A stretch of 46,574 nucleotides of DNA, from positions 1 through 46,574 of the forward strand of contig JAPLZY010000009.1 of assembly GCA_026394775.1 (NCBI GenBank). Reading direction: 5' to 3'. The notes beneath the pieces were generated by a model. It saw only the letters and a program-made list of their open reading frames with translations. It was not told where the DNA came from and made no database searches. This DNA comes from Candidatus Zambryskiibacteriota bacterium (GTDB lineage Bacteria; Patescibacteriota; Minisyncoccia; Phycocordibacterales; DATDWN01). The translations under genes were made by a program, and so were the position numbers. Below, piece by piece: positions 4,534 through 43,197 of this stretch (position 1 is the first letter of the stretch; each line of letters opens with the position of its first letter).

Positions 4534-4560
4534 ATATAACCATAATGGTACAAGACTTTC

Positions 4561-4665
4561 ATATTTGAGCAAAGTTCTAGGCGGACTAGAAAAATAATTT
4601 GAGGCGTACTAATGTACGATGAGAATTATTTTTTGAAGTCCAACAACGAAATTTGCCAAATATGG
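4561..4665 (-). repeat. 105-bp palindromic element, copy 1, directly after the VirB4 stop
   Basis: Aligns without gaps to 18376-18480 with four differences in 105 bp. The ends are inverted (ATATTTGAGCAAA against ATATTTGGCAAAT on the other strand), the middle pairs GGACT with AGTCC and AAAATAATT with AATTATTTT, and the tip is CGTAC-TAAT-GTACG. It begins 8 bp after the VirB4 stop codon. Read in the gene's direction it is terminator-like, with an A/T-rich stem. Confidence 0.85.
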
Positions 4666-4672
4666 AAGTCTA

Positions 4673-7600
4673 TTACTGAGAGAGTAGATCACTTTTGGCT
4701 TTCTTGATAGCAAGAATTTGAGACGGATCAGAAGTAATAATCTGGTCTTCAGTGTACGAAGCAATTATTTTGATTGCCACATGTTTGAGTCCTGCAAAAA
4801 AGATTCCCTCCCCCACATCTGACTCGAGAAGTAGATATTTCTCTTCGTCTGTCAGGTTAAAAGTTTGTTGAAGTTTATCCATTGAAATCGCTGACTGTTT
4901 GAGGAGGATTTGGATTGAAGAGTTGGTAATAATAGGCATTCCATATGGAGATTTCAAAAAGTCGTCCACGTCTTGAGTGATGGTGGCAAGGCCAAGGAAA
5001 TATTTTCGTCCACGTTTTGCTAAAGACAAAAGGAATGAAGCGGTGTCTTCTGACTTCATCATCCACCATGCCTCGTCGATTACCAGAAGGCGCTTTCGCA
5101 GGTCTTTTCGGATCGCTGCCCAGATGTAATGCATAATAATATACATTGCGATAGGTTTGAGCTCGTCTTCCATATCACGTACAGAAAAGACAATAAACTT
5201 TTTGTTGATATCGATATTGGTTGGTCGGTTTATAAACCCGGCCCATGTTCCTTTGGTGTATTTTGTGAGGCGTTGTGCGAGAGAGTCCCCACCTTCCATA
5301 CCGGAGAGCACGAGTTCAAAGTCAGAAAGAAGTGGTGGTTCTACATTTTTAAAATCAGAGTCAGGTGTAATGTCTTTGAGAGCATATGTCTCGCTGATCG
5401 CTCGGTCGATAATAGCATCTTCTTCAGAGGTAAGACCGCCGAGCATGATACGGAAAAGTCCGACAAGGTTAATGATGTTACTTCGAAGAATACTTGCACT
5501 TGACTCACCTTCTCCCGGCATCGGTAGATCAAAAGGGTTGATATGATGCTCTGAGTTCAGGGATATCTTAAAGAAACGTCCACCCACCGCTTCTGCCATG
5601 TATTCATATTCATTTTCAGGGTCAATCACCATGACGTTGGTGTCGAACATAAGCGTACGAAGTATCTCGAGCTTTGTTGCATATGAGTTGTGAACAAACA
5701 TTCCCGCTGTTCCCGCTAAAAAGATTTCATTGTCTACTGTAAGGTCGTAGACATATTTGTCCGCAGTATTTTTTGTTTCTTTTATAGAAACAATCGGATC
5801 CCACATGAGGTCAGAGGAGCTCAAACGCTTGAGCATAGAAAGTATTCCTTTTACATGAGGTATAGACTCACTTATGTGTCGGTATGTTTCGTTTATGAAA
5901 TTTCCTGCATCACGAAGACTGTCGTATGAAGTACGATCAGGTAAGTTTTTACGAAAAGCACTGCCAAGTCCAGGAGCTTGTTGAATAATTAGAGAATCAA
6001 AGTCTAAAAAGCTTCCATGAATACTGTACATTGACTGCTCTATTGCATTACTCACTTTTTCACCAAGCACAACTTGTGAAAGAGTGAGTACATTAGCTAA
6101 TCCGACCTGACCTTTACGTTTTTTCATCCATGCCCAGCTTGAGCCAAGTGTGTCCCAGAGCTTTGCATTAAATTCTTTATTAGATTCACCAAGTCGAATA
6201 AGAGTCTCAATATCCGGTAATGCAGAAAGTGCTTTCATTGCAGGGGCTGCGCGTTCAAAGTGTGTAATACGTTCTTCAACAATGTGTATGAGTTTGGAGA
6301 GCTCTTCTCTTGAAGAATAATAAACACTTTGTGAAAGTGGAGAGAGGTTTGGAATATTATGGAGTTGGCTACCAAAATGCATACGAAGCTCAGCGATGAG
6401 GGGGGCAACATTTGGAATTATATCTACATTTGTATTTCCTTCTCTGTTGCAAATAGAAGCAAGGCTCTCTTGTTTGCGTCGAGTTGCAAACCCTATTTTT
6501 TCCAGGAAAGAATTCAAATCAGTTTGCCCGGATATTGCAAGTACCCAAAATGTTCTCCGTCCTCCAGTTTTTTTGTAAGTCACACTTCTTTTGCGCAGTC
6601 GAGCAACAATACCAAACCCAAGCAAGAGATAAGAAATTTCAGAAAGGAGCTGTTTTGATTTGGATGTTGCAGTGACCTGTAGACTATCTACCCCCCCATC
6701 TCCTTCAAAGTAGCTTCGCAGATATGCAGCCACGATTTCTTTTGGAAAATTAAACAGTGCAGGTGCGACATGTTTATCTTTAGATCGTCCACCCGCTTTA
6801 AGAGCGTACACAAGAGCAATAAAAGGACGATCTGAAATCACAATATCCTTTGGTGTTGGAAAATGGAGTACACCTAAAGCAGTGCAGGATTTTTGTATTA
6901 TATCTCGAACATCGAGATCCAGATTGGTGATTTTAATCGCATTGGGGTTTACAGTCCCTTCAGAGCTTATGTACCCAAGAAGAGTCCCCAAATCGCTCGT
7001 TGCTTTAATTATTGCAGGTAGCTTCCCTGCTCCACTAGCTGACATGATATGTAAGGAGTTCAACTGCTGATCAGTAAGCTTTACCTTCGCTTTTTTAATG
7101 AGTGTATTAAAATAAGCAAGCGGAATACGGCGTCCTTTTTTGTACATTGGTAAATATCGGTCATATTGGGAATCAATTGTCTCTCGAGAGTATGTTTTAT
7201 GTAGTTCTGTAACAATATTTGCCCCACCCACCACGTACATTCTTGCTTCATTTTTCAAAATATCAAGTAAGTTGAGTGCCGCGTGTGCATTTTCGGAAAA
7301 AGAAACAGTGCGAGGAAGCGGTATATACTCACCTATCTTTAACTCAGTACTTTTCGATACCACCACCTGTCCATCTCGTAATACAAGCATGTTGTGGTCT
7401 CCGGTAGTTGTTACTTCTCGTCCACTCTTAGTTTTGAAATGATAATACTCTCTTGGTGCATCTTTTCGTGCAGCGACAGTTACATCACTCCATGAGCCTT
7501 TGAGTTCTTTGTCGAAACTCCACACTTGAAATCCAGGATCGATTGCTCCTTCCATTTCATCAGCAAATTGCACACAACCTTTTTGTTTGATTGTTTTCTC

Positions 7601-8467
7601 TACGAGAGGGCCAATCTCTCGAAGCTCAATATGTCCATCTTTTCGAATAAGTACTGGCTCATTACCTCGTATGCTCTTACCCGATCCAGATTTAGCGAAG
7701 GTAATCGAGTTGTAGTTCTCCAAAGAGAAGCGGTCAAAGAGCACGAGAGATGAATTGTGTCTGTTAATACCATATAAAATACCTTTGTCTGAAGTAAGGT
7801 CGAAAGAAATAAAAGGAAAAAGACTCGAAAGTGGAGAAGAGTTGAGTTTGCTGTGTACTTCAAGCTGGTCTGTACCAAGTGGAAGAACTGCTTTAAATGC
7901 TTGTTCTTGTTGAAAAAGAGCAGGTTTTACATATACAAGCTTTGCTTCGAGGATTGATTTGATCTCGGACTCAATTTTGTCGAGCTCTGCATCGGAGTCT
8001 CCATACATAGTGATATAAAGACCTACATCAAAAAGTTTCTCTTGTGCTTGCTGGAGTTGGTCGCGCAAAGACTCGAGGTCTTGGTATGCGGTATCGAGCA
8101 TCGGGTTTCTCACCTGTCCTCGAGCTTCTCGTGCCATGATCTGACTCTGCACTTCGGCTACTTTTTTCTGAAATGTACGAAGAACATCCGAAGTTTCGAT
8201 CGGATGAATAAAAATAGCAATATCAAATACTTTGTCGAGGTTGATGATAGGTGAAAACCAGTTTTCACCTAAGAAACGAGGGTATGAGATGACAAAAAAG
8301 CTACGAAGTATTTTTTCACCCAAGTTAATCTCTTTTGGAGATATTTTGAGTGCACTTGGAGCAATAATATCCTGTAGCTCAAGAGTACCTGCTTGGTATA
8401 TTTCTTGAGGAATGATAGAAGAAATTTTTGGCTCTTCTTTTTTTTGTAAAAAATCAAATAATCCCAT
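4673..8467 (-). CDS. virB4: VirB4/TraC-family secretion ATPase interrupted by an intein in the P-loop
   Basis: The ORF encodes 1264 residues. Removing residues 265-927 leaves a 601-residue VirB4-like ATPase, a normal size for CPR homologues. The N-terminal domain (1-250) includes a coiled region near 95-150. The Walker A motif FAKSGSGK-S is split: K264 is followed by the intein and the motif resumes at S928 (SYATKLEILR). Then come VMVIDPENEY (945-954), Walker B LLVIDEAWW (1127-1135), the ATITQDVDDF Q-loop (1161-1170) and a C-terminal hexamerisation region. The protein would energise pilus or effector transport from the cytoplasmic face. It is in frame with no stop across the intein, so splicing is required for ATPase activity. 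Neighbours are PrgI, a TraC-like protein and a VirB6-like protein. Confidence 0.93.
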   Translation of the reverse strand: MGLFDFLQKKEEPKISSIIPQEIYQAGTLELQDIIAPSALKISPKEINLGEKILRSFFVISYPRFLGENWFSPIINLDKVFDIAIFIHPIETSDVLRTFQKKVAEVQSQIMAREARGQVRNPMLDTAYQDLESLRDQLQQAQEKLFDVGLYITMYGDSDAELDKIESEIKSILEAKLVYVKPALFQQEQAFKAVLPLGTDQLEVHSKLNSSPLSSLFPFISFDLTSDKGILYGINRHNSSLVLFDRFSLENYNSITFAKSGSGKSIRGNEPVLIRKDGHIELREIGPLVEKTIKQKGCVQFADEMEGAIDPGFQVWSFDKELKGSWSDVTVAARKDAPREYYHFKTKSGREVTTTGDHNMLVLRDGQVVVSKSTELKIGEYIPLPRTVSFSENAHAALNLLDILKNEARMYVVGGANIVTELHKTYSRETIDSQYDRYLPMYKKGRRIPLAYFNTLIKKAKVKLTDQQLNSLHIMSASGAGKLPAIIKATSDLGTLLGYISSEGTVNPNAIKITNLDLDVRDIIQKSCTALGVLHFPTPKDIVISDRPFIALVYALKAGGRSKDKHVAPALFNFPKEIVAAYLRSYFEGDGGVDSLQVTATSKSKQLLSEISYLLLGFGIVARLRKRSVTYKKTGGRRTFWVLAISGQTDLNSFLEKIGFATRRKQESLASICNREGNTNVDIIPNVAPLIAELRMHFGSQLHNIPNLSPLSQSVYYSSREELSKLIHIVEERITHFERAAPAMKALSALPDIETLIRLGESNKEFNAKLWDTLGSSWAWMKKRKGQVGLANVLTLSQVVLGEKVSNAIEQSMYSIHGSFLDFDSLIIQQAPGLGSAFRKNLPDRTSYDSLRDAGNFINETYRHISESIPHVKGILSMLKRLSSSDLMWDPIVSIKETKNTADKYVYDLTVDNEIFLAGTAGMFVHNSYATKLEILRTLMFDTNVMVIDPENEYEYMAEAVGGRFFKISLNSEHHINPFDLPMPGEGESSASILRSNIINLVGLFRIMLGGLTSEEDAIIDRAISETYALKDITPDSDFKNVEPPLLSDFELVLSGMEGGDSLAQRLTKYTKGTWAGFINRPTNIDINKKFIVFSVRDMEDELKPIAMYIIMHYIWAAIRKDLRKRLLVIDEAWWMMKSEDTASFLLSLAKRGRKYFLGLATITQDVDDFLKSPYGMPIITNSSIQILLKQSAISMDKLQQTFNLTDEEKYLLLESDVGEGIFFAGLKHVAIKIIASYTEDQIITSDPSQILAIKKAKSDLLSQ
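5687..7675 (-). mobile_element. Large LAGLIDADG intein within the VirB4 P-loop (663 residues)
   Basis: Boundaries are read directly. Residue 265 (Ser, intein position 1) follows GSGK and begins SIRGNEPVLIRKDG. The element ends VYDLTVDNEIFLAG...MFVHN at Asn927, followed by Ser928 as the +1 extein nucleophile. Splicing block B is TTTGDHNM (T355, H358). Blocks C and E of a DOD homing endonuclease are LGTLLGYISSEGTV (acid E503) and YLRSYFEGDGGVD (acid D590). C-terminal blocks F and G include the penultimate His926 and terminal Asn927. All splicing residues and both endonuclease acids are present, so it appears active. About 250 residues lie between the endonuclease and the C-terminal splicing region, longer than usual, and match no domain I recognise. 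Confidence 0.92.
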
Positions 8468-8471
8468 GATA

Positions 8472-9110
8472 TTATGTTATTTGTATTGGCTTTTCTGTCT
8501 CGCCCGGGTTAAATATCTTGTAAAACAATTCTACCACTTCTTCTGTCCCCAATCGTGCAGCACGCACCCCACAACGGACCAGTCCCTGCTCCACAATAGC
8601 CAATCTTTGCTCAACCTGAGTACGGTTTTCTTCAAAGTTCTCCATACGCTTTTTTACATCCGATTCATCATCTTTTTTACCAAAGAATCCTCCTGGGTTG
8701 ATACCCTTCCCTTGGATAAGTGCTGGTGAGTACGGCACTACCACAAAGAAACTTTTAGTCATTATGTTTGTGGATTCGGTAAATTTTCGGATAAACTCAA
8801 TGTACTCTTGGGTCTGAATCTTCATTAAGTCATTGGTTTGTTCTTTATATCTGTTTTCTAGAAGTGCAATATACGGCCTAATATCAAGGCGTCGTGACTG
8901 AATAAAAATCTGGACAGGAAAGTCGAGTGAGTTCAAGAAATCTTGAAATTGATACAAAATACCTTTTCTCTCATCTTCTGATTTAAGAGAAAAGTTTAAT
9001 GAAGATGCAAGCAAGATAGCTCGCATAGAGTTGTCCTTGAGAAGTATCACACCATCGCGTACTTCTTTGATCGGAACAAAATCTTGAGTTGCTTTAGAAG
9101 GAATAGGCAT
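8472..9110 (-). CDS. TraC-like/VirB4 N-terminal-domain-like protein
   Basis: From the start at 9110 (212 residues, MPIPSKATQDFVPIKEVRDGV) the protein has the alpha/beta pattern seen in the N-terminal region of TraC/VirB4 proteins: VILLKDNSMRAILLASSLNFSLKSEDE, FQDFLNSLDFPVQIFIQSRRLD and KSFFVVVPYS. Then comes a charged coiled segment (about 155-180) and VRAARLGTEEVVELFYKIFNP. The upstream ATG at 9128 leads only to six poorly supported residues. It ends 4 bp before the VirB4 start, so translation is probably coupled. It likely docks with the ATPase on the cytoplasmic side; that role is inferred. Confidence 0.82.
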   Translation of the reverse strand: MPIPSKATQDFVPIKEVRDGVILLKDNSMRAILLASSLNFSLKSEDERKGILYQFQDFLNSLDFPVQIFIQSRRLDIRPYIALLENRYKEQTNDLMKIQTQEYIEFIRKFTESTNIMTKSFFVVVPYSPALIQGKGINPGGFFGKKDDESDVKKRMENFEENRTQVEQRLAIVEQGLVRCGVRAARLGTEEVVELFYKIFNPGETEKPIQIT

Positions 9111-9133
9111 GGAATTATTGTAGCACAAAATTT

Positions 9134-9637: not shown

Positions 9638-9650
9638 AATTTAAATATAT

Positions 9651-9763
9651 ATACGAATATACGAATAATTCGAATCTACGAATGAATACGAATAGATGCA
9701 TTTATTCGTAACCATTCGTAAGTATTCAATTCGTATATTCGTATGTTTTCGCATATTAGTATG
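9651..9763. repeat. ACGAAT-rich long palindrome, copy 1
   Basis: A perfect 16-bp inverted repeat (ATACGAATATACGAAT on the left, its complement near 9732-9747) encloses further ACGAAT/ATTCGT units, so the roughly 100-bp tract can fold into one long hairpin. It lies directly after the stop of the minus-strand gene at 9764. Related tracts are at 31235-31326, 39659-39746 and, as a fragment, 44382-44414. Confidence 0.85.
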
Positions 9764-18315: not shown

Positions 18316-18375
18316 CTCAATACTCTATCATACTGTTAAAAACTTTTATGCATAGGTTTTGAAGTTAGTAACTCA

Positions 18376-18480
18376 ATATCTGAGCAAAGTTCTAGGTGGA
18401 CAAGAAAAATAATTTGAGGCGTACTAATGTACGATGAGAATTATTTTTTGAAGTCCAACAACGAAATTTGCCAGATATGG
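18376..18480 (-). repeat. 105-bp palindromic element, copy 2, directly after the uvrD stop
   Basis: Matches 4561-4665 at 101 of 105 positions. Two of the four differences are a compensatory pair in the terminal stem: T4565-A4659 in copy 1 is C18380-G18474 here. Sequence outside the shared 105 bp is also self-complementary (AGTAACTCA on the left against TGGGGTTACT on the right). It begins 10 bp after the uvrD stop codon, the same relation as copy 1 to VirB4. Confidence 0.85.
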
Positions 18481-18489
18481 GGTTACTAT

Positions 18490-20460
18490 TTAAAAATCAA
18501 TACTAAAATACCGCCCACCACCACCTCCCCTTGCCGGCCCCATCATACTTTTCTTTTCTTGATCTAAGAAATCTTCATTTATATCAGCAATAAACTGAGA
18601 CGGAGTATTGATTTGTTTAGAACCAAAAATAGTACGCATTTGAGCGAGTGTGAGGTAGAGTTTTTTCCGTGCCCGGGTTACTGCCACATAAAAAAGTCTT
18701 CGTTCTTCTTCACTTTCCTCCCCTTCTTTTTTCTTTTCACCAAAGCGCCTGTGAGGAAAGAGGTCTTCTTCCATTCCGGAAATAAACACATAATCAAATT
18801 CAAGTCCTTTTGAAGAGTGCACCGTCATGAGCTTCACACCTGTTGTTTCTTTTTTAAGTGAGTCCTGGTCTGACACAAGGGCTGCATCGGTAAGTAGCTG
18901 CTCGATACCCTCTTCTGGCAAGAGTTCGTCGTATCCTGTAGCAAGAGTTACCAGTTCCATTATGTTTTCAAGTCTTTCCTGGTCTTCGTCGTTACCTTTT
19001 GCATAAGCTTCTTGCATGCCTGAAATATCTACAATGTATCGCATTGATTCAGACACTTTATGAGTCAGCATAAAACCTTTAATGCGCACAAGCATTTCCT
19101 TAAACAATCTTATTTTCTCTTGAGTTTTAATTGGAAGTCCTGCTTCTTCCCCTGCTTCTATTTTATCAAGCGTAACTTTGCCGATACCTCGCGGAGGTAC
19201 GTTTATAATACGAGCTAAATCAAGGCTACTTTCTGGGTTTAAGGCTGATTTGATATACGAGAGCATATCCTTAATTTCTTTTCGTTCAAAGAATTTTGTT
19301 CCAAGCATCTGATACGGTACACCATATGCAAGAAATGCTTCTTCAAGAATTCGAGACTGGAAGTTGGCACGGAAAAGCACGGCTATTTCATCAGGTTTTA
19401 TTCCAGATTCAATAATTTCTTTACTCCTTTGGGCAATAAAGTGCGCTTCGTCAACTTCATTAAAACCTTCGTAGACGCTCACCTTCTCACCTTCTGTATT
19501 TTCAGTAAATAAGTTTTTAGGAATACGCCATTTGTTTTTAGAGATCACTTCGTTTGCCACCTTAAGGATCATTTTTGTAGAGCGGTAATTTTGTTCGAGA
19601 AGTACGACGTGTGCATGAGGATACTTTTTTTCAAATGAAAGCATGTTTTTAATCTCAGCCCCTCTCCACCCGTAGATTGATTGATCCACATCCCCAACCA
19701 CACAAAGATTTTGATTTTTATCAAGTAATATATCAATCAGTTTATGCTGTACTTTGTTAGTGTCTTGATATTCATCTACATGCACATACTGCCAAAGGTT
19801 TTGATAGTATGTTCGAATGTCAAGGTGTTTCTCAAGTAGCTCAAGGGATTTAAGGAGAAGGTCGTCAAAATCCAAAGCTTTTTCTTTTCGCAAAGTGTCT
19901 TCGTATATTTTCCATGCACGACCAGTGATGTCAGATGTAAAGTCGTAAGACTGTCTTGATACAAACTGCTCATACGAAACCCCAAGCCCTTTTTCACGAG
20001 AAATAATACCAGCCACTTTATCCAAATGCTCTTTTGGCTCTACATTGAGAGATTCAAGAGCTTTTTTGAGAGCTTTTTTTGAGTCTGTTTTGTCAAAAAT
20101 ACCAAAATGACGAGGGAGACCAAGCCGATCTGCCCATTGCTTGATCATAAAGACCCCAAGTGAGTGAAAAGTGCTCACAAAAGGTACTGCATTGTGGTTT
20201 TGCGCTTTAAGAACCGGGTCGGCCAAAAGAAGGTGCTCTACTCGCTCACGCATCTCTTTACCTGCTTTGTTTGTGAAGGTGATAGCTAGAATATTGTGAG
20301 GATGAATACCTTGTTTGATTAAGTGAAGGATTCTATGAGTGATGGTTTTTGTTTTCCCTGCACCCGCTCCTGCAATAATCAATACGGGACCTTCGGTAGC
20401 AAGCACAGCTATTTTTTGTTTGTCGTTAAGTCCTGAAAGATAGTCGGAAGTGGTGTTCAT
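18490..20460 (-). CDS. uvrD: UvrD/PcrA-type superfamily 1 DNA helicase
   Basis: From the ATG at 20460 (656 residues) this is a complete 3'-5' DNA helicase for nucleotide excision or mismatch repair and replication restart. Motifs: Q-motif LNDKQKIAV, Walker A IIAGAGAGKTKTI, motif Ia AITFTNKAGKEMRERV, motif II VDEYQDTN, motif III GDVDQSIYGWRGA, motif IV LLEQNYRST, motif V MTVHSSKGLEFDYVF, motif VI FYVAVTRARKKLYL. A GTG at 20469 would overlap the -10 box, so the ATG is preferred. The C-terminus is short and Gly-rich. TGCTATAGT, an extended -10, starts 13 bp upstream of the ATG, predicting a leaderless mRNA. Confidence 0.94.
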   Translation of the reverse strand: MNTTSDYLSGLNDKQKIAVLATEGPVLIIAGAGAGKTKTITHRILHLIKQGIHPHNILAITFTNKAGKEMRERVEHLLLADPVLKAQNHNAVPFVSTFHSLGVFMIKQWADRLGLPRHFGIFDKTDSKKALKKALESLNVEPKEHLDKVAGIISREKGLGVSYEQFVSRQSYDFTSDITGRAWKIYEDTLRKEKALDFDDLLLKSLELLEKHLDIRTYYQNLWQYVHVDEYQDTNKVQHKLIDILLDKNQNLCVVGDVDQSIYGWRGAEIKNMLSFEKKYPHAHVVLLEQNYRSTKMILKVANEVISKNKWRIPKNLFTENTEGEKVSVYEGFNEVDEAHFIAQRSKEIIESGIKPDEIAVLFRANFQSRILEEAFLAYGVPYQMLGTKFFERKEIKDMLSYIKSALNPESSLDLARIINVPPRGIGKVTLDKIEAGEEAGLPIKTQEKIRLFKEMLVRIKGFMLTHKVSESMRYIVDISGMQEAYAKGNDEDQERLENIMELVTLATGYDELLPEEGIEQLLTDAALVSDQDSLKKETTGVKLMTVHSSKGLEFDYVFISGMEEDLFPHRRFGEKKKEGEESEEERRLFYVAVTRARKKLYLTLAQMRTIFGSKQINTPSQFIADINEDFLDQEKKSMMGPARGGGGGRYFSIDF

Positions 20461-20512
20461 GTTGCTCACTATAGCATATCAGGGAGACCTTTTTTATGTG
20501 GATAGGACGCTA

Positions 20513-20724: not shown

Positions 20725-21747
20725 ATGAACAAACAGGATCTCTCAAAACTTACTCTTAAGTTTATTTTTGTTGTGTGTGTAATGCTCCTACCTTTTGTTG
20801 CTGTTGCGAGCATTCGTTCTTTTGTGACAAGTATGTTCAAAGGTGCTTCTGCTGAACCTGAGCTTGCTCAGAATTCTCAAAACATGCCGCTTCTTCAAGC
20901 TGCTACTGCACCTCAAAATCAGCCGGTGGGTGGTGGTGAGATCGCCATTGTGGACGAAAGCTCACTTCTAGCAGAAAACTCAGGTGTAGCTGCATCTTCA
21001 AAAGAACATACTTCAGACCAGATTACTACATATATAGTACGAAAAGGAGATACTCTTTCAAGCATTGCTAAAATGTTTAATGTGACTACCAATACTATAG
21101 TGTGGTCAAACGATATTGCTGGAAACAAAGTGTCTCCGGGTGACCGTCTAGTAATCCTTCCTGTTTCAGGTGTACGTCATACAGTAAAGAAAGGAGATAC
21201 ACTTCAGTCAATTGCTAAAAAATATAAAGGTGACTTGGAAGAAATCGCTCAGTTTAACGATGTGTCAGTAGATTCTAAGCTTGCCGTGGGTGACATTGTT
21301 ATTATTCCAGATGGAGAAATGCTTTCTGGACACGAAACTCCTGGTAAATCCACTCCTGTTTCGACAAAGACACTGCAAAAATACTTGGCAGCACCAAAAC
21401 TCGATGGATATTACGCCCGACCTCTTATTGGGGGCATAAAAACCCAAGGAATTCATGGCCATAACGGAGTGGATATTGCCTCAACTTTTGGTTCAAGTAT
21501 TCTCGCGGCTGCTTCGGGTGAAGTGATTATTGCTAAAGGTAGTGGATACAATGGTGGATATGGCTCATATGTTGTTATTAAACACAGTAATGGAACACAA
21601 ACACTCTACGCTCACCTCTCAGGTGTTCAGGTTTCTGCGGGAGATATGGTGGATCAAGGTCAGGTGATCGGAAACATGGGATCGACGGGTAAGTCGACGG
21701 GGACGCATTTGCACTTTGAAGTACGTGGCGCCCGCAATCCTTTCTAA
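20725..21747 (+). CDS. Secreted LysM and M23-family peptidoglycan endopeptidase
   Basis: The 340-residue protein has a membrane or signal segment (about 10-28, FIFVVCVMLLPFVAVASI) and a linker. LysM domain 1 (about 100-147, YIVRKGDTLSSIAKMFNVTTNTIVWSN) is followed by LysM domain 2 (about 150-195, HTVKKGDTLQSIAKKYKGD). A lysostaphin-like M23 peptidase (about 245-340) follows: the zinc ligands fit GHNGVDIA and HLHFEVRG. It should cleave peptide cross-links in the cell wall, probably in division or remodelling. The sequence ends at NPF, slightly earlier than usual. The 30 codons before the ATG are also open, so the true N-terminus is uncertain. Confidence 0.9.
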   Translation: MNKQDLSKLTLKFIFVVCVMLLPFVAVASIRSFVTSMFKGASAEPELAQNSQNMPLLQAATAPQNQPVGGGEIAIVDESSLLAENSGVAASSKEHTSDQITTYIVRKGDTLSSIAKMFNVTTNTIVWSNDIAGNKVSPGDRLVILPVSGVRHTVKKGDTLQSIAKKYKGDLEEIAQFNDVSVDSKLAVGDIVIIPDGEMLSGHETPGKSTPVSTKTLQKYLAAPKLDGYYARPLIGGIKTQGIHGHNGVDIASTFGSSILAAASGEVIIAKGSGYNGGYGSYVVIKHSNGTQTLYAHLSGVQVSAGDMVDQGQVIGNMGSTGKSTGTHLHFEVRGARNPF

Positions 21748-21784
21748 AACTCCCAAATTTCACCAATCTCATCGTCTAAAATTT

Positions 21785-21830
21785 AAAAAGGTTCTCGTCG
21801 TACGACATGCACGCCTATGAGCCTTTTTTA
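21785..21830 (+). terminator. Terminator after the LysM/M23 gene
   Basis: AAAAAGGTTC (21785-21794) pairs with GAGCCTTTTT (21819-21828) with one G-U, followed by T-rich sequence. The loop contains a small GTCGTACGAC palindrome. Confidence 0.75.
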
Positions 21831-21840
21831 ATTTTATACG

Positions 21841-21910
21841 CGACTTTGGCGAAATTATGAAAGTTTTTAGAGATTTTCTCTAGTCCGCCTAGGATTTCAC
21901 TCAGATTTGA
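21841..21910 (+). repeat. Diverged copy 3 of the 105-bp palindromic element
   Basis: The motif TCTCTAGTCCGCCTAGGATT (21876-21895) matches, in opposite orientation, the arm of copies 1 and 2. The outer inverted arms are TTTGGCGAAAT and TTTCACTCAGA. The middle is shortened to a hairpin AGAGA...TCTCT near 21869-21881. Relative to the upstream gene it has the same orientation as the other two copies. Confidence 0.6.
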
Positions 21911-22021
21911 AACCTAGAGATTGGATTATATTTAGTTTTCAAATATTTTAAAATGGTTTCGTATTTCAGCGGTTTTTGTTGTCTAGTTTGTGTAAATATG
22001 TACTTTGTGACAGGAGTTTCA

Positions 22022-29949: not shown

Positions 29950-30040
29950 GATCCTTACAGGATCAGTACACCTTGTCGATCTTTTGATTACAAAAGCTCT
30001 GACAAGGTCTTGCGAAAGCATATGATGCTTTCTCACTTGG
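29950..30040 (+). repeat. Three-hairpin element, copy A
   Basis: Three helices: GATCC-TTACA-GGATC (29950-29964); ACCTTGTC...GACAAGGT (about 29970-30008) enclosing CTTTTG-ATTA-CAAAAG; and AAGCAT...ATGCTT (about 30016-30030). It ends in TCTCAC. It lies 45 bp after the Xer stop. Copies B and C at 34928 and 43117 share loops but differ in stems. Confidence 0.75.
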
Positions 30041-31170: not shown

Positions 31171-31217
31171 CGCTCCGCCGTGACTGCGACAGTCTCCGCG
31201 TTGAGCGGTTTTTTGTA
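31171..31217 (+). terminator. Terminator after the small ORF
   Basis: CCGCTC (near 31173) and GAGCGG (near 31204) close a stem with inner CGC...GCG and GACTG-CGA-CAGTC, followed by TTTTTT. Confidence 0.8.
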
Positions 31218-31234
31218 TATAAATGTAGATAAAC

Positions 31235-31326
31235 ATACGAATATGCGAATAAATACACATCTACGAATAGCTACGAATGAATTCACTCGTAGCTATTCGT
31301 AAGTTTTCAATTCGTATATTCATATT
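31235..31326. repeat. ACGAAT-rich long palindrome, copy 2
   Basis: The 40-bp core (31262-31301) matches the core at 39679-39718 except for one base. The outer arms ATACGAATAT and ATATTCATAT extend the hairpin to about 90 bp. The tract ends 2 bp from the cca stop codon. Confidence 0.85.
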
Positions 31327-34900: not shown

Positions 34901-35027
34901 CCCGAAGGGAGGTGACTCCGGGTTCGACTCCTTACAGGAGCTGTACACCTTGTTGATCTTTTGATTACAAAAGCTCTAGCAAGGTCTTGCGAAGTGAGGT
35001 CGCTCACTTCTCACCCGGCACCCCGAC
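34901..35027 (+). pseudogene. Duplicate tRNA-Pro 3' half interrupted by the three-hairpin element
   Basis: GTGACTCCGGGTTCGA (about 34912-34927) repeats 16 nt of the intact tRNA-Pro, and CCCGGCACCCCGAC (35014-35027) repeats its last 14 nt. Between them lies the whole three-hairpin element (34928-35013), so the duplicate tRNA is broken exactly within the T loop. A hairpin CAGAAGCG-TTTTA-CGCTTCTG precedes it at about 34878-34898. Confidence 0.75.
34928..35016 (+). repeat. Three-hairpin element, copy B
   Basis: CTCC-TTACA-GGAG; ACCTTGTT...AGCAAGGT enclosing CTTTTG-ATTA-CAAAAG; GAAGTGAG-GTCG-CTCACTTC; ends TCTCAC. Compared with copy A the first and third stems have changed on both arms with pairing kept. 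A U-G pair in the second stem favours the plus strand as RNA. Confidence 0.78.
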
Positions 35028-39658: not shown

Positions 39659-39746
39659 TACGAAAATTATGCGAACTATACGAATAGCTACGAATGAATT
39701 CATTCGTAGCTATTCGTAGATTTGTATTATTCGTTAATTCGTATGT
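39659..39746. repeat. ACGAAT-rich long palindrome, copy 3
   Basis: The core 39679-39718 is a perfect 40-bp palindrome (TACGAATAGCTACGAATGAA and its complement). The tract ends at the RNase Y stop codon. Confidence 0.9.
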
Positions 39747-41276
39747 TTACCTCGCGTACTCAATCGTTCTACTCTCACGAATCACATTAACCTTAATCTC
39801 TCCCGGATATTTCAATTCATTTTCGATTCGTGTTGCTATGTCTCGTGCAAGTTTCTTTGCCTCTAGGTCAGTTACATTTTCAGGAGTCACAAAAACCCTT
39901 ATTTCTCGGCCTGCTTGGAGAGCATATGCTTTTTCCACACCTTTACATGATGTTGCAATACCTTCAAGTTCTCCGAGTCGTTTCAAATAGTTTTCTACGG
40001 AGTCACGGCGTGCGCCAGGGCGACTTCCAGAGATCGCATCAGCTGACTGGACGATGATAGACTCCACTGTTTCATATGGGTATTCTTCATGATGTGCCTG
40101 CATTGCTTTGATCACAGCTTCATCCACATTAAATTTCTGAAGAATTCGTCGGCCGATTTCCACATGTGTCCCAGCTACTTCATGGTCGAGCGCTTTTCCG
40201 ATATCGTGCAAGAGTGCACCTGCTTTAGCCACTTGAACATTTGCACCGAGCTCTGCGGCGAGCATGCCTGCAATATGAGTCATTTCTATGGAGTGAGCTA
40301 AGACGTTTTGTCCGTAGCTCGTACGGAAATGGAGCCGACCGAGGATCGCTACTACCTTGGGGTCAAGATTCAAGATCCCACATTCGTACACCGCTTCTTC
40401 ACCTTTTTCTTTAATCACTTTGTTGATATCCTCTTGTGCTTTTTGCACCATTTCCTCGATTTTTGCAGGCTGGATTCGGCCATCAGCGATCAATTTTTCG
40501 AGCGCCATTTTTGCAACCTGACGTCGTACTGGGTCAAAAGATGAGATAGTGATAGAGCCGGGGGTATCATCCACTATTACTTCCACACCACTCATTCGTT
40601 CAAATGCTTTGATATTTCTACCTTCTTTTCCGATAATCTTACCCTTGATCTCATCTGAAGCGATAGGAACACTGGTGGTGAGCATGTCGACTGAAACTGA
40701 GTTGGCAAGGCGTTGTATAGAAGTCGCCAAAATATCCTGAGCTTTTTTCAAGAGTTGTTCTTCGCCATTTCGCTCAAGCTTTTGCATACGCGCTAAAATA
40801 TCCGCTTCGTATGCGCGTTCAGTACTTTCTAAGATTTCTTTCTTTGCTTCTTCAGGAGAAAGGCGAGCAACTCGTTCAAGTTCGGCCTGGCGCTCTTCTT
40901 TTAGTTTGTCTGCTTTGTCTCTGATTTCCTTTACTTCAGTGATCTTTTCTTTGATCATGTCCACTTCAGAGTCAATATCGATCTGACGCTTGTCGAGCAT
41001 CTCCTCTTTTTTAATGAGGCGATCTTCAGTCTTTTTAGCTTTTTCTTCTTTTTCTTTGACCTCTATTCGAACTTCTTCACTTATTTTATTCGCTTTACGT
41101 TCCGCTTCTTCAATAATCTCTTTTTCTCTGTTCTTTGCTGCAAGTTCCATTTCTTTAAGTTCGAGCTCCATTGAGCCGCGTTTTCCAAGAGAAATGATCA
41201 GACGCAGGTAGTATCCTAAACCAAGCCCTATCATGGATGCGAGAGCCACGAGGAGCGCTACTATTTTTAATGACAT
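39747..41276 (-). CDS. rny: Ribonuclease Y
   Basis: The 509-residue protein has an N-terminal membrane anchor (about 3-26, IVALLVALASMIGLGLGYYL) and a coiled coil (about 35-175). A KH domain (GKIIGKEGRNIKAFERMSGVEVIVDDTP) and an HD domain (HSIEMTHIAGMLAAELG, LLHDIGKALDHEV, AHHEEYP) follow. The signature C-terminal part (RPGARRDSVENYLKRLGELEGIA) is present. RNase Y starts mRNA decay at the membrane. Length and motifs are normal. Confidence 0.96.
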   Translation of the reverse strand: MSLKIVALLVALASMIGLGLGYYLRLIISLGKRGSMELELKEMELAAKNREKEIIEEAERKANKISEEVRIEVKEKEEKAKKTEDRLIKKEEMLDKRQIDIDSEVDMIKEKITEVKEIRDKADKLKEERQAELERVARLSPEEAKKEILESTERAYEADILARMQKLERNGEEQLLKKAQDILATSIQRLANSVSVDMLTTSVPIASDEIKGKIIGKEGRNIKAFERMSGVEVIVDDTPGSITISSFDPVRRQVAKMALEKLIADGRIQPAKIEEMVQKAQEDINKVIKEKGEEAVYECGILNLDPKVVAILGRLHFRTSYGQNVLAHSIEMTHIAGMLAAELGANVQVAKAGALLHDIGKALDHEVAGTHVEIGRRILQKFNVDEAVIKAMQAHHEEYPYETVESIIVQSADAISGSRPGARRDSVENYLKRLGELEGIATSCKGVEKAYALQAGREIRVFVTPENVTDLEAKKLARDIATRIENELKYPGEIKVNVIRESRTIEYAR

Positions 41277-43116: not shown

Positions 43117-43197
43117 CTCCCTACAGGAGCAGTACACCTTGATTACCTGAGTACAGATAATCAAGGTCTTGCGAAGTGAGGTCACTCACTTCTCACC
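43117..43197 (+). repeat. Three-hairpin element, copy C
   Basis: CTCC-CTACA-GGAG; ACCTTGATTA...TAATCAAGGT (10 bp, longer than in A and B); GAAGTGAG-GTCA-CTCACTTC; ends TCTCAC. It starts about 20 bp after the rsmE stop. The inner CTTTTG hairpin of A and B is replaced. Confidence 0.78.

Follow-up and report, generated by a model that had tools for sequence, protein, structure and literature searches.

The element and its copies in the window

The window, that is, the whole stretch of 46,574 nucleotides analyzed here, contains a palindromic sequence that is placed directly after stop codons. The question raised by this locus is whether such a sequence is a mobile element that came to rest at the ends of genes or a functional part of the genes that it adjoins. 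The preliminary description had considered both, namely a MITE that became a standard 3' end and a functional 3' UTR structure.

The 105-nt core at 4561-4665 and 18376-18480, which had been presented as a repeat with four differences, was found again with an identity of 96%. The four differences include one compensatory pair; the T-A to C-G swap claimed before is present in the ATTTG/CAAAT stem of the two copies. Copy 1 (type A) extends from 4553 to 4672 on the plus strand. Its outer stem, AGACTTTC/GGAAGTCT, is variable, and its interior contains the conserved internal loop CTAGG/AACAACG and the apical hairpin CGTAC-TAAT-GTACG. The stem adjoins the stop codon (TAA, 4673-4675, minus strand) of a virB4-like gene (4673-8467, minus strand, assigned with Pfam), and an additional in-frame TAG overlaps the base of the stem. 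Copy 2 (type A, 18368-18487, plus strand) shares 96% of the core with copy 1 and has its own outer stem, TAGTAAC/GTTACTA. It lies beside the stop codon (18490-18492, minus strand) of uvrD (18490-20469, minus strand, assigned with Pfam). As had been described, the 105-nt repeats lie 8-10 bp from the minus-strand stop codons of virB4 and uvrD. In RNA folding, copies 1 and 2 were more stable than their shuffles (z = -8.3 and -9.0, respectively).

A third, diverged copy had been placed at 21841-21910, near the gene for a LysM/M23 peptidase (20725-21747, plus strand, assigned with Pfam). This copy does exist and ends on the stop codon of that gene, but its location is different. Copy 3 is an intact element of type B at 21746-21866 on the minus strand, with the loop GTCGCG/GACGATGAGATT. 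Its right end overlaps the LysM/M23 stop codon (21745-21747, plus strand), which lies within the outer stem. The E values of copy 3 were 4.7e-18 and 9.2e-10 with the covariance models R2 and R1 described below. The region 21841-21910 consists of the edge of copy 3 plus a 38-nt end fragment; this fragment, the left end of a type A element of which the right half is missing, adjoins copy 3 at 21875-21912 on the minus strand.

Several other features were seen in the window. The virB4-like gene at 4673-8467 contains an intein with a LAGLIDADG domain (PF14890, PF14528). A second dispersed structured repeat (GTGAGAAGTGA..TCACTTCGCAAGACCTTG..CAAGGTGTAC..CCTGTAAGG) is present at 29952-30016, 34929-35015 and 43162-43197, partly beside a tRNA-like T-arm. 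One copy of it is inserted in the apical loop of the studied element at locus L018, and two other genomes have it in the typA leader (L306, L311). A third, palindromic repeat with TACGAAT units is found at 9646-9749, 31217-31306 and 39674-39752; a sequence similar to it (L146) stands after uvrD in another genus (G009).

Structure of the element and its asymmetry between strands

The element is a non-coding single hairpin of about 121 nt with terminal inverted repeats. On the plus strand, the order of its parts is a variable outer stem, a GCAAA/TTTGC stem, a conserved internal loop and a short GGAC/GTCC stem, followed in the inner part by an A/T-rich stem, a UGAG/UGAG loop and the apical CGTAC/GTACG hairpin. 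The internal loop is CTAGG/AACAACG, with the variants CGAGG/AACAAAG and CGCGAA/GACAAAG, and in type B it is GCGTA/GACGAT.

Two-sided (compensatory) changes were found at 39 of the 40 base pairs in an alignment of 89 copies. In the same copies 93.4% of the cells were paired, whereas the figure was 70.0% for shuffles and did not exceed 50.2% for slid partners. Because the alignment had been built to fit an earlier structure, the counts lean toward that structure; since both kinds of control fall so far below the observed value, pairing by chance is unlikely.

We then compared the stability of the two strands. The plus strand was more stable than its complement in 91 of the 92 copies from genomes of the same family (mean, -49.4 vs -38.1 kcal/mol); the orientation of a copy was assigned by the search model built from plus strands, but the energy difference is independent of this model. 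Among distant copies, the plus strand was more stable in 44 of 48. The outer pair at k=-6 is a conserved T.G pair, with GU in 37 copies and AC in 5. The stability asymmetry of 91/92 and the conserved T.G pair indicate that the structure is kept on one strand. For most copies, this more stable strand is the one antisense to the abutted gene.

Copy number and taxonomic distribution

A nucleotide search gave about 20 copies in the genome of the window (753 kb in 32 contigs), which is that of a Zambryskibacteria-like Patescibacterium. R1, a covariance model made from 19 copies found in this genome, gave 42 matches in it, that is, about 35-37 distinct copies without reverse-strand echoes, and the two weakest of them are uncertain. 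The element is present in every one of the 17 family genomes, at 5-46 copies per genome. R2, a covariance model made from 89 copies, was used for wider sampling with a cut-off of E<=1e-6. Copies were detected in 45 of 148 sampled genomes of the order, 21 of 142 of the class and 10 of 192 of the phylum; these counts include the window's genome, and the phylum sample also includes two of its own class.

Matches to a 20-base pattern of the element had Candidatus Zambryskibacteria, UBA910 and a Parcubacteria bin as hosts, and an exact search with a 20-base pattern gave no match in viral contigs. Against the 4,227 families of Rfam, only sub-threshold matches were obtained and none reached the gathering score. 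We found no published description of this hairpin family in the open-licence literature, although this is weak evidence of absence.

Position relative to genes

In nearly all cases the copies are oriented alike with respect to the gene end that they adjoin, and most often this end is the stop codon. In the family genomes, 55 of 92 copies have the right end of the stem between -15 and +10 bp from a stop codon that belongs to an opposite-strand gene, with genes called by a simple codon-usage caller and not taken from curated annotation. Random intergenic placement would give 1.9% (p about 3e-70, a value to be read with the partial dependence of related copies in mind). For the left end, on the other hand, such a position is found in only 4 of the 92. 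Of 10 copies standing between convergent genes, 9 have the right end closer to a gene than the left end. The same rule was seen in G121, in other families and in other classes. Thus, as a statement of position, the expression "standard 3' end" of the preliminary description is borne out by this abutment in one orientation. That description had also named random orientation to genes and unconserved pairing as observations that would count against it; we looked for both, and neither was found.

A smaller class of copies is in the sense orientation. In the 14 sense copies between codirectional genes, the right end is mostly 0-51 bp before the start codon. The leader of typA has a sense copy in 8 of 15 genomes, belonging to four genera, and the stem ends 3-7 nt before the ATG; the arm sequences of these copies are very different.

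The genes abutted by the element also recur. Across families, secY, ychF, pilB, lysS, M23 and secF were found repeatedly, and so were rplB, translation GTPases (lepA/tuf type), ftsX and rpsL; except for those confirmed with Pfam, these names were read by eye from the protein sequences. The recurrence at the same genes reflects either long retention or repeated insertion at favored genes, and the recurrence across families could reflect vertical inheritance of a functional element instead of mobility.

Most copies occupy dispersed single sites and do not form arrays. Head-to-tail tandem copies in the same orientation, 4-6 bp apart, were seen at L324, L325 and L326 (G159) and at 353049 and 353175 in G121.

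Ends and arms

The complementary flanks specific to each copy, which had been described for copies 1 and 2, proved to be general. That is, in 71 copies the positions k=-5 to k=-1 form Watson-Crick pairs in 83-99% of copies. The arm columns k=-3 and k=-1 carry only 0.2-0.5 bits and yet are paired in 83-94% of copies, and the pairing falls to background at k>=3. The left end has the consensus TARRANTTTC and the right end GGAANTYYTA. It follows from the right consensus that a gene read into this end meets TAA or TAG within the stem.

Copies 1 and 2 have different arms on a core shared at 96%, which means that a copy does not simply receive its arms along with the core. We looked for a target-site duplication, and the direct repeats at the flanks were not above those of shuffled pairs. 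TA was present on both sides in 17 cases against 10 expected, but the complementarity of the arms would itself raise this count. The complementary arm might come from snap-back copying of the target, as is suggested by C22:12127, at which the arm extends into the last codons. The empty sites of G001 are too diverged to serve as proof of such copying.

Gain of copies and replacement of cores

Orthologues of uvrD are present in 13 and those of virB4 in 14 family genomes, and the element stands at these sites in the window's genome alone. Neither of the two type A copies of the window is present at the orthologous site in G001, and many further type A copies are missing from G001 as well; this comparison was made at about 70-80% nucleotide identity, which is too diverged to give an exact insertion junction. 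The absence of both close copies from the sites of relatives indicates that the repeat family spreads, and mobility is thus supported by presence and absence at sites, which show gain of copies rather than transposition as such. The sites at infB, ftsZ, pilB, lepA (C26:17291), typA and a few more genes are occupied in G001 as well. At pilB, G000 and G001 have an identical outer stem and different cores, and the core of G000 is of the type abundant in G000. This comparison shows that the core of an element can be replaced. At one convergent gene pair, G000 has the element (C27:4408-4528), and G001 has a plain terminator-like hairpin (L166, about 9074-9123).

Taken together, the interpretation of the preliminary description is partly supported. 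As to the MITE, the mobile part of the claim agrees with a genomic copy number of about 35 and with the absence of the close copies from the sites of relatives, but the target-site duplication does not appear.

Comparison with known systems and other explanations

Correia elements are grouped with similar bacterial MITEs. The element resembles the ERIC/RU-1 and RU-2-like MITEs (PMC2229807, PMC2759123), which are also non-coding imperfect palindromes of about 100-170 bp with lineage-specific insertions. Unlike all of these MITEs, it gave no target duplication, its ends are hypervariable but self-complementary, its polarity toward gene ends is strong, its fold is asymmetric between strands, and we found no such family described in its host group. 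REP, BIME and REPIN sequences with RAYT are likewise short palindromic extragenic repeats with many copies, often 3' of genes. In contrast to them, the element is a single hairpin of about 121 nt with conserved internal loops, a fixed polarity and a stop codon inside the stem, and it has neither the GTAG/CGTC tag of REP (PMC3733652) nor a link to a Y1 transposase. Because the test for target duplication failed for MITEs, and the test for tag and transposase failed for REP, the element is filed under neither, although its behavior is like that of bacterial MITEs and of REP-type repeats.

A different possibility is that the element is a cis-acting RNA of the abutted gene, such as a 3' UTR stabilizer, a processing site, a terminator or, at typA and infB, a leader controlling translation, which spread through its usefulness. 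The anchoring to stop codons, the return of the same genes across families, the strong covariation and the stem ending just before the ATG in 8 of 15 typA leaders agree with this idea, and in the typA and infB leaders the sense element stands as structured cis-regulatory leaders of translation genes do. Unlike such leaders, it has no Rfam match and is antisense at 3' ends in most copies, and so the mRNA mostly carries the strand that folds more weakly. Moreover, copy 1 has no terminator-like U-run, and copies 1 and 2 are recent gains without a counterpart in relatives. We therefore regard this explanation as unlikely, though worth keeping in mind. The account of an mRNA 3' UTR is weakened by the strand result, and the "functional 3' UTR structure" proposed earlier does not hold as stated, since the better-folding strand is mostly antisense to the abutted mRNA and a sizeable sense class stands in 5' leaders such as that of typA. 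At typA and infB, the element may still have a leader function.

The polarity might also come from replication and not from genes, if copies survived only with the weaker hairpin on the lagging-strand template. In G121, which is one contig with a clear GC-skew switch, 17 of 17 copies follow the replichore, and the copies listed for G199 are all on one strand. However, the genes of G121 are strongly co-oriented with replication, so that the two causes cannot be told apart there; within 17 kb of the window, copies 1 and 2 (plus) and copy 3 (minus) each follow their own gene, and the tight distance to the stop codon would be left unexplained. We consider this quite improbable. Movement of a REP/REPIN-type repeat by a Y1 transposase (RAYT or IS200-like) is slightly more doubtful still. 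The element is palindromic and extragenic with tens of copies, and the window's genome does encode Y1 transposases, but their genes carry unrelated hairpins, no Y1 transposase match was obtained in G005, G006 and G008, which have 24-46 copies, and the end consensus has no GTAG-like tag on an element of about 121 nt instead of 20-40 nt. The Y1 transposases are thus disfavored as the mobilizer, both by the other hairpins at their genes and by their absence from copy-rich genomes. At L032 (G000:C8) and L031 (G000:C16), a RAYT-like and an IS200-like gene have their own flanking hairpins, CCCCAAGGCC-GGCCTTGGGG and a separate one, which are unrelated to the element. Integron attC sites are hairpins directly after stop codons with a fixed polarity, in which the gene-antisense strand folds. 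The element resembles them in these three respects. Even so, it has no R/L boxes, the conserved AAC/GTT core boxes (RYYYAAC/GTTRRRY) being absent from its ends by column statistics; it occupies dispersed single sites and not cassette arrays; and at conserved housekeeping genes it was acquired on its own, without the gene, these genes staying in place with or without it. An attC-like recombination site is therefore highly improbable, and identity with attC is rejected on account of the ends and the absent cassettes.

Proposed explanation and its meaning

We think that the element belongs to a mobile, strand-asymmetric palindromic repeat family which has a fixed polarity toward gene ends and is often retained at core genes; we give this reading a probability of about 0.6. 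Copies are gained at new sites, as is seen in the lineage-specific copies, and a core can be replaced by the type abundant in the genome, as is seen at pilB. The right end adjoins one or the other terminus of a coding sequence, and the polarity is fixed. In most cases this terminus is the stop codon, and the gene is read in the direction of the element; in fewer cases it is the start codon, which then follows closely after the right end, and the gene is read in the direction leading away from the element. The plus strand, as RNA or as single-stranded DNA, may be the form recognized by whatever moves or uses the element. Insertion or survival may be favored at gene ends, probably because the base of the stem tolerates or regenerates a TAA or TAG stop. 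A role at the gene boundary may be the reason why some copies at core genes persist, such as those in the typA and infB leaders and those at the 3' ends of secY, lepA, ychF, pilB and M23. No ORF-bearing parent element with both ends was found in G001, G121 or the window, and the search gave no transposase tied to the element.

We also considered a stronger form of this reading. In this form, the elements are a novel class of strand-specific hairpins directed at the borders of coding sequences. Such a hairpin would take up the host gene's stop codon into its terminal stem and itself write the arm complementary to it, and it would persist at core genes as a boundary module throughout a bacterial class. 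The core genes named for it are those of translation GTPases, secY, lysS and pilB. We regard this form as rather improbable.

Patescibacteria have very small genomes with scant intergenic space, and yet tens of long structured repeats stand at the ends of their essential genes. The covariance model provides an annotation for many intergenic regions of Patescibacteria that are otherwise blank. The family is also a testable system for asking how repeats reach gene ends with one polarity and whether they become parts of gene boundaries.
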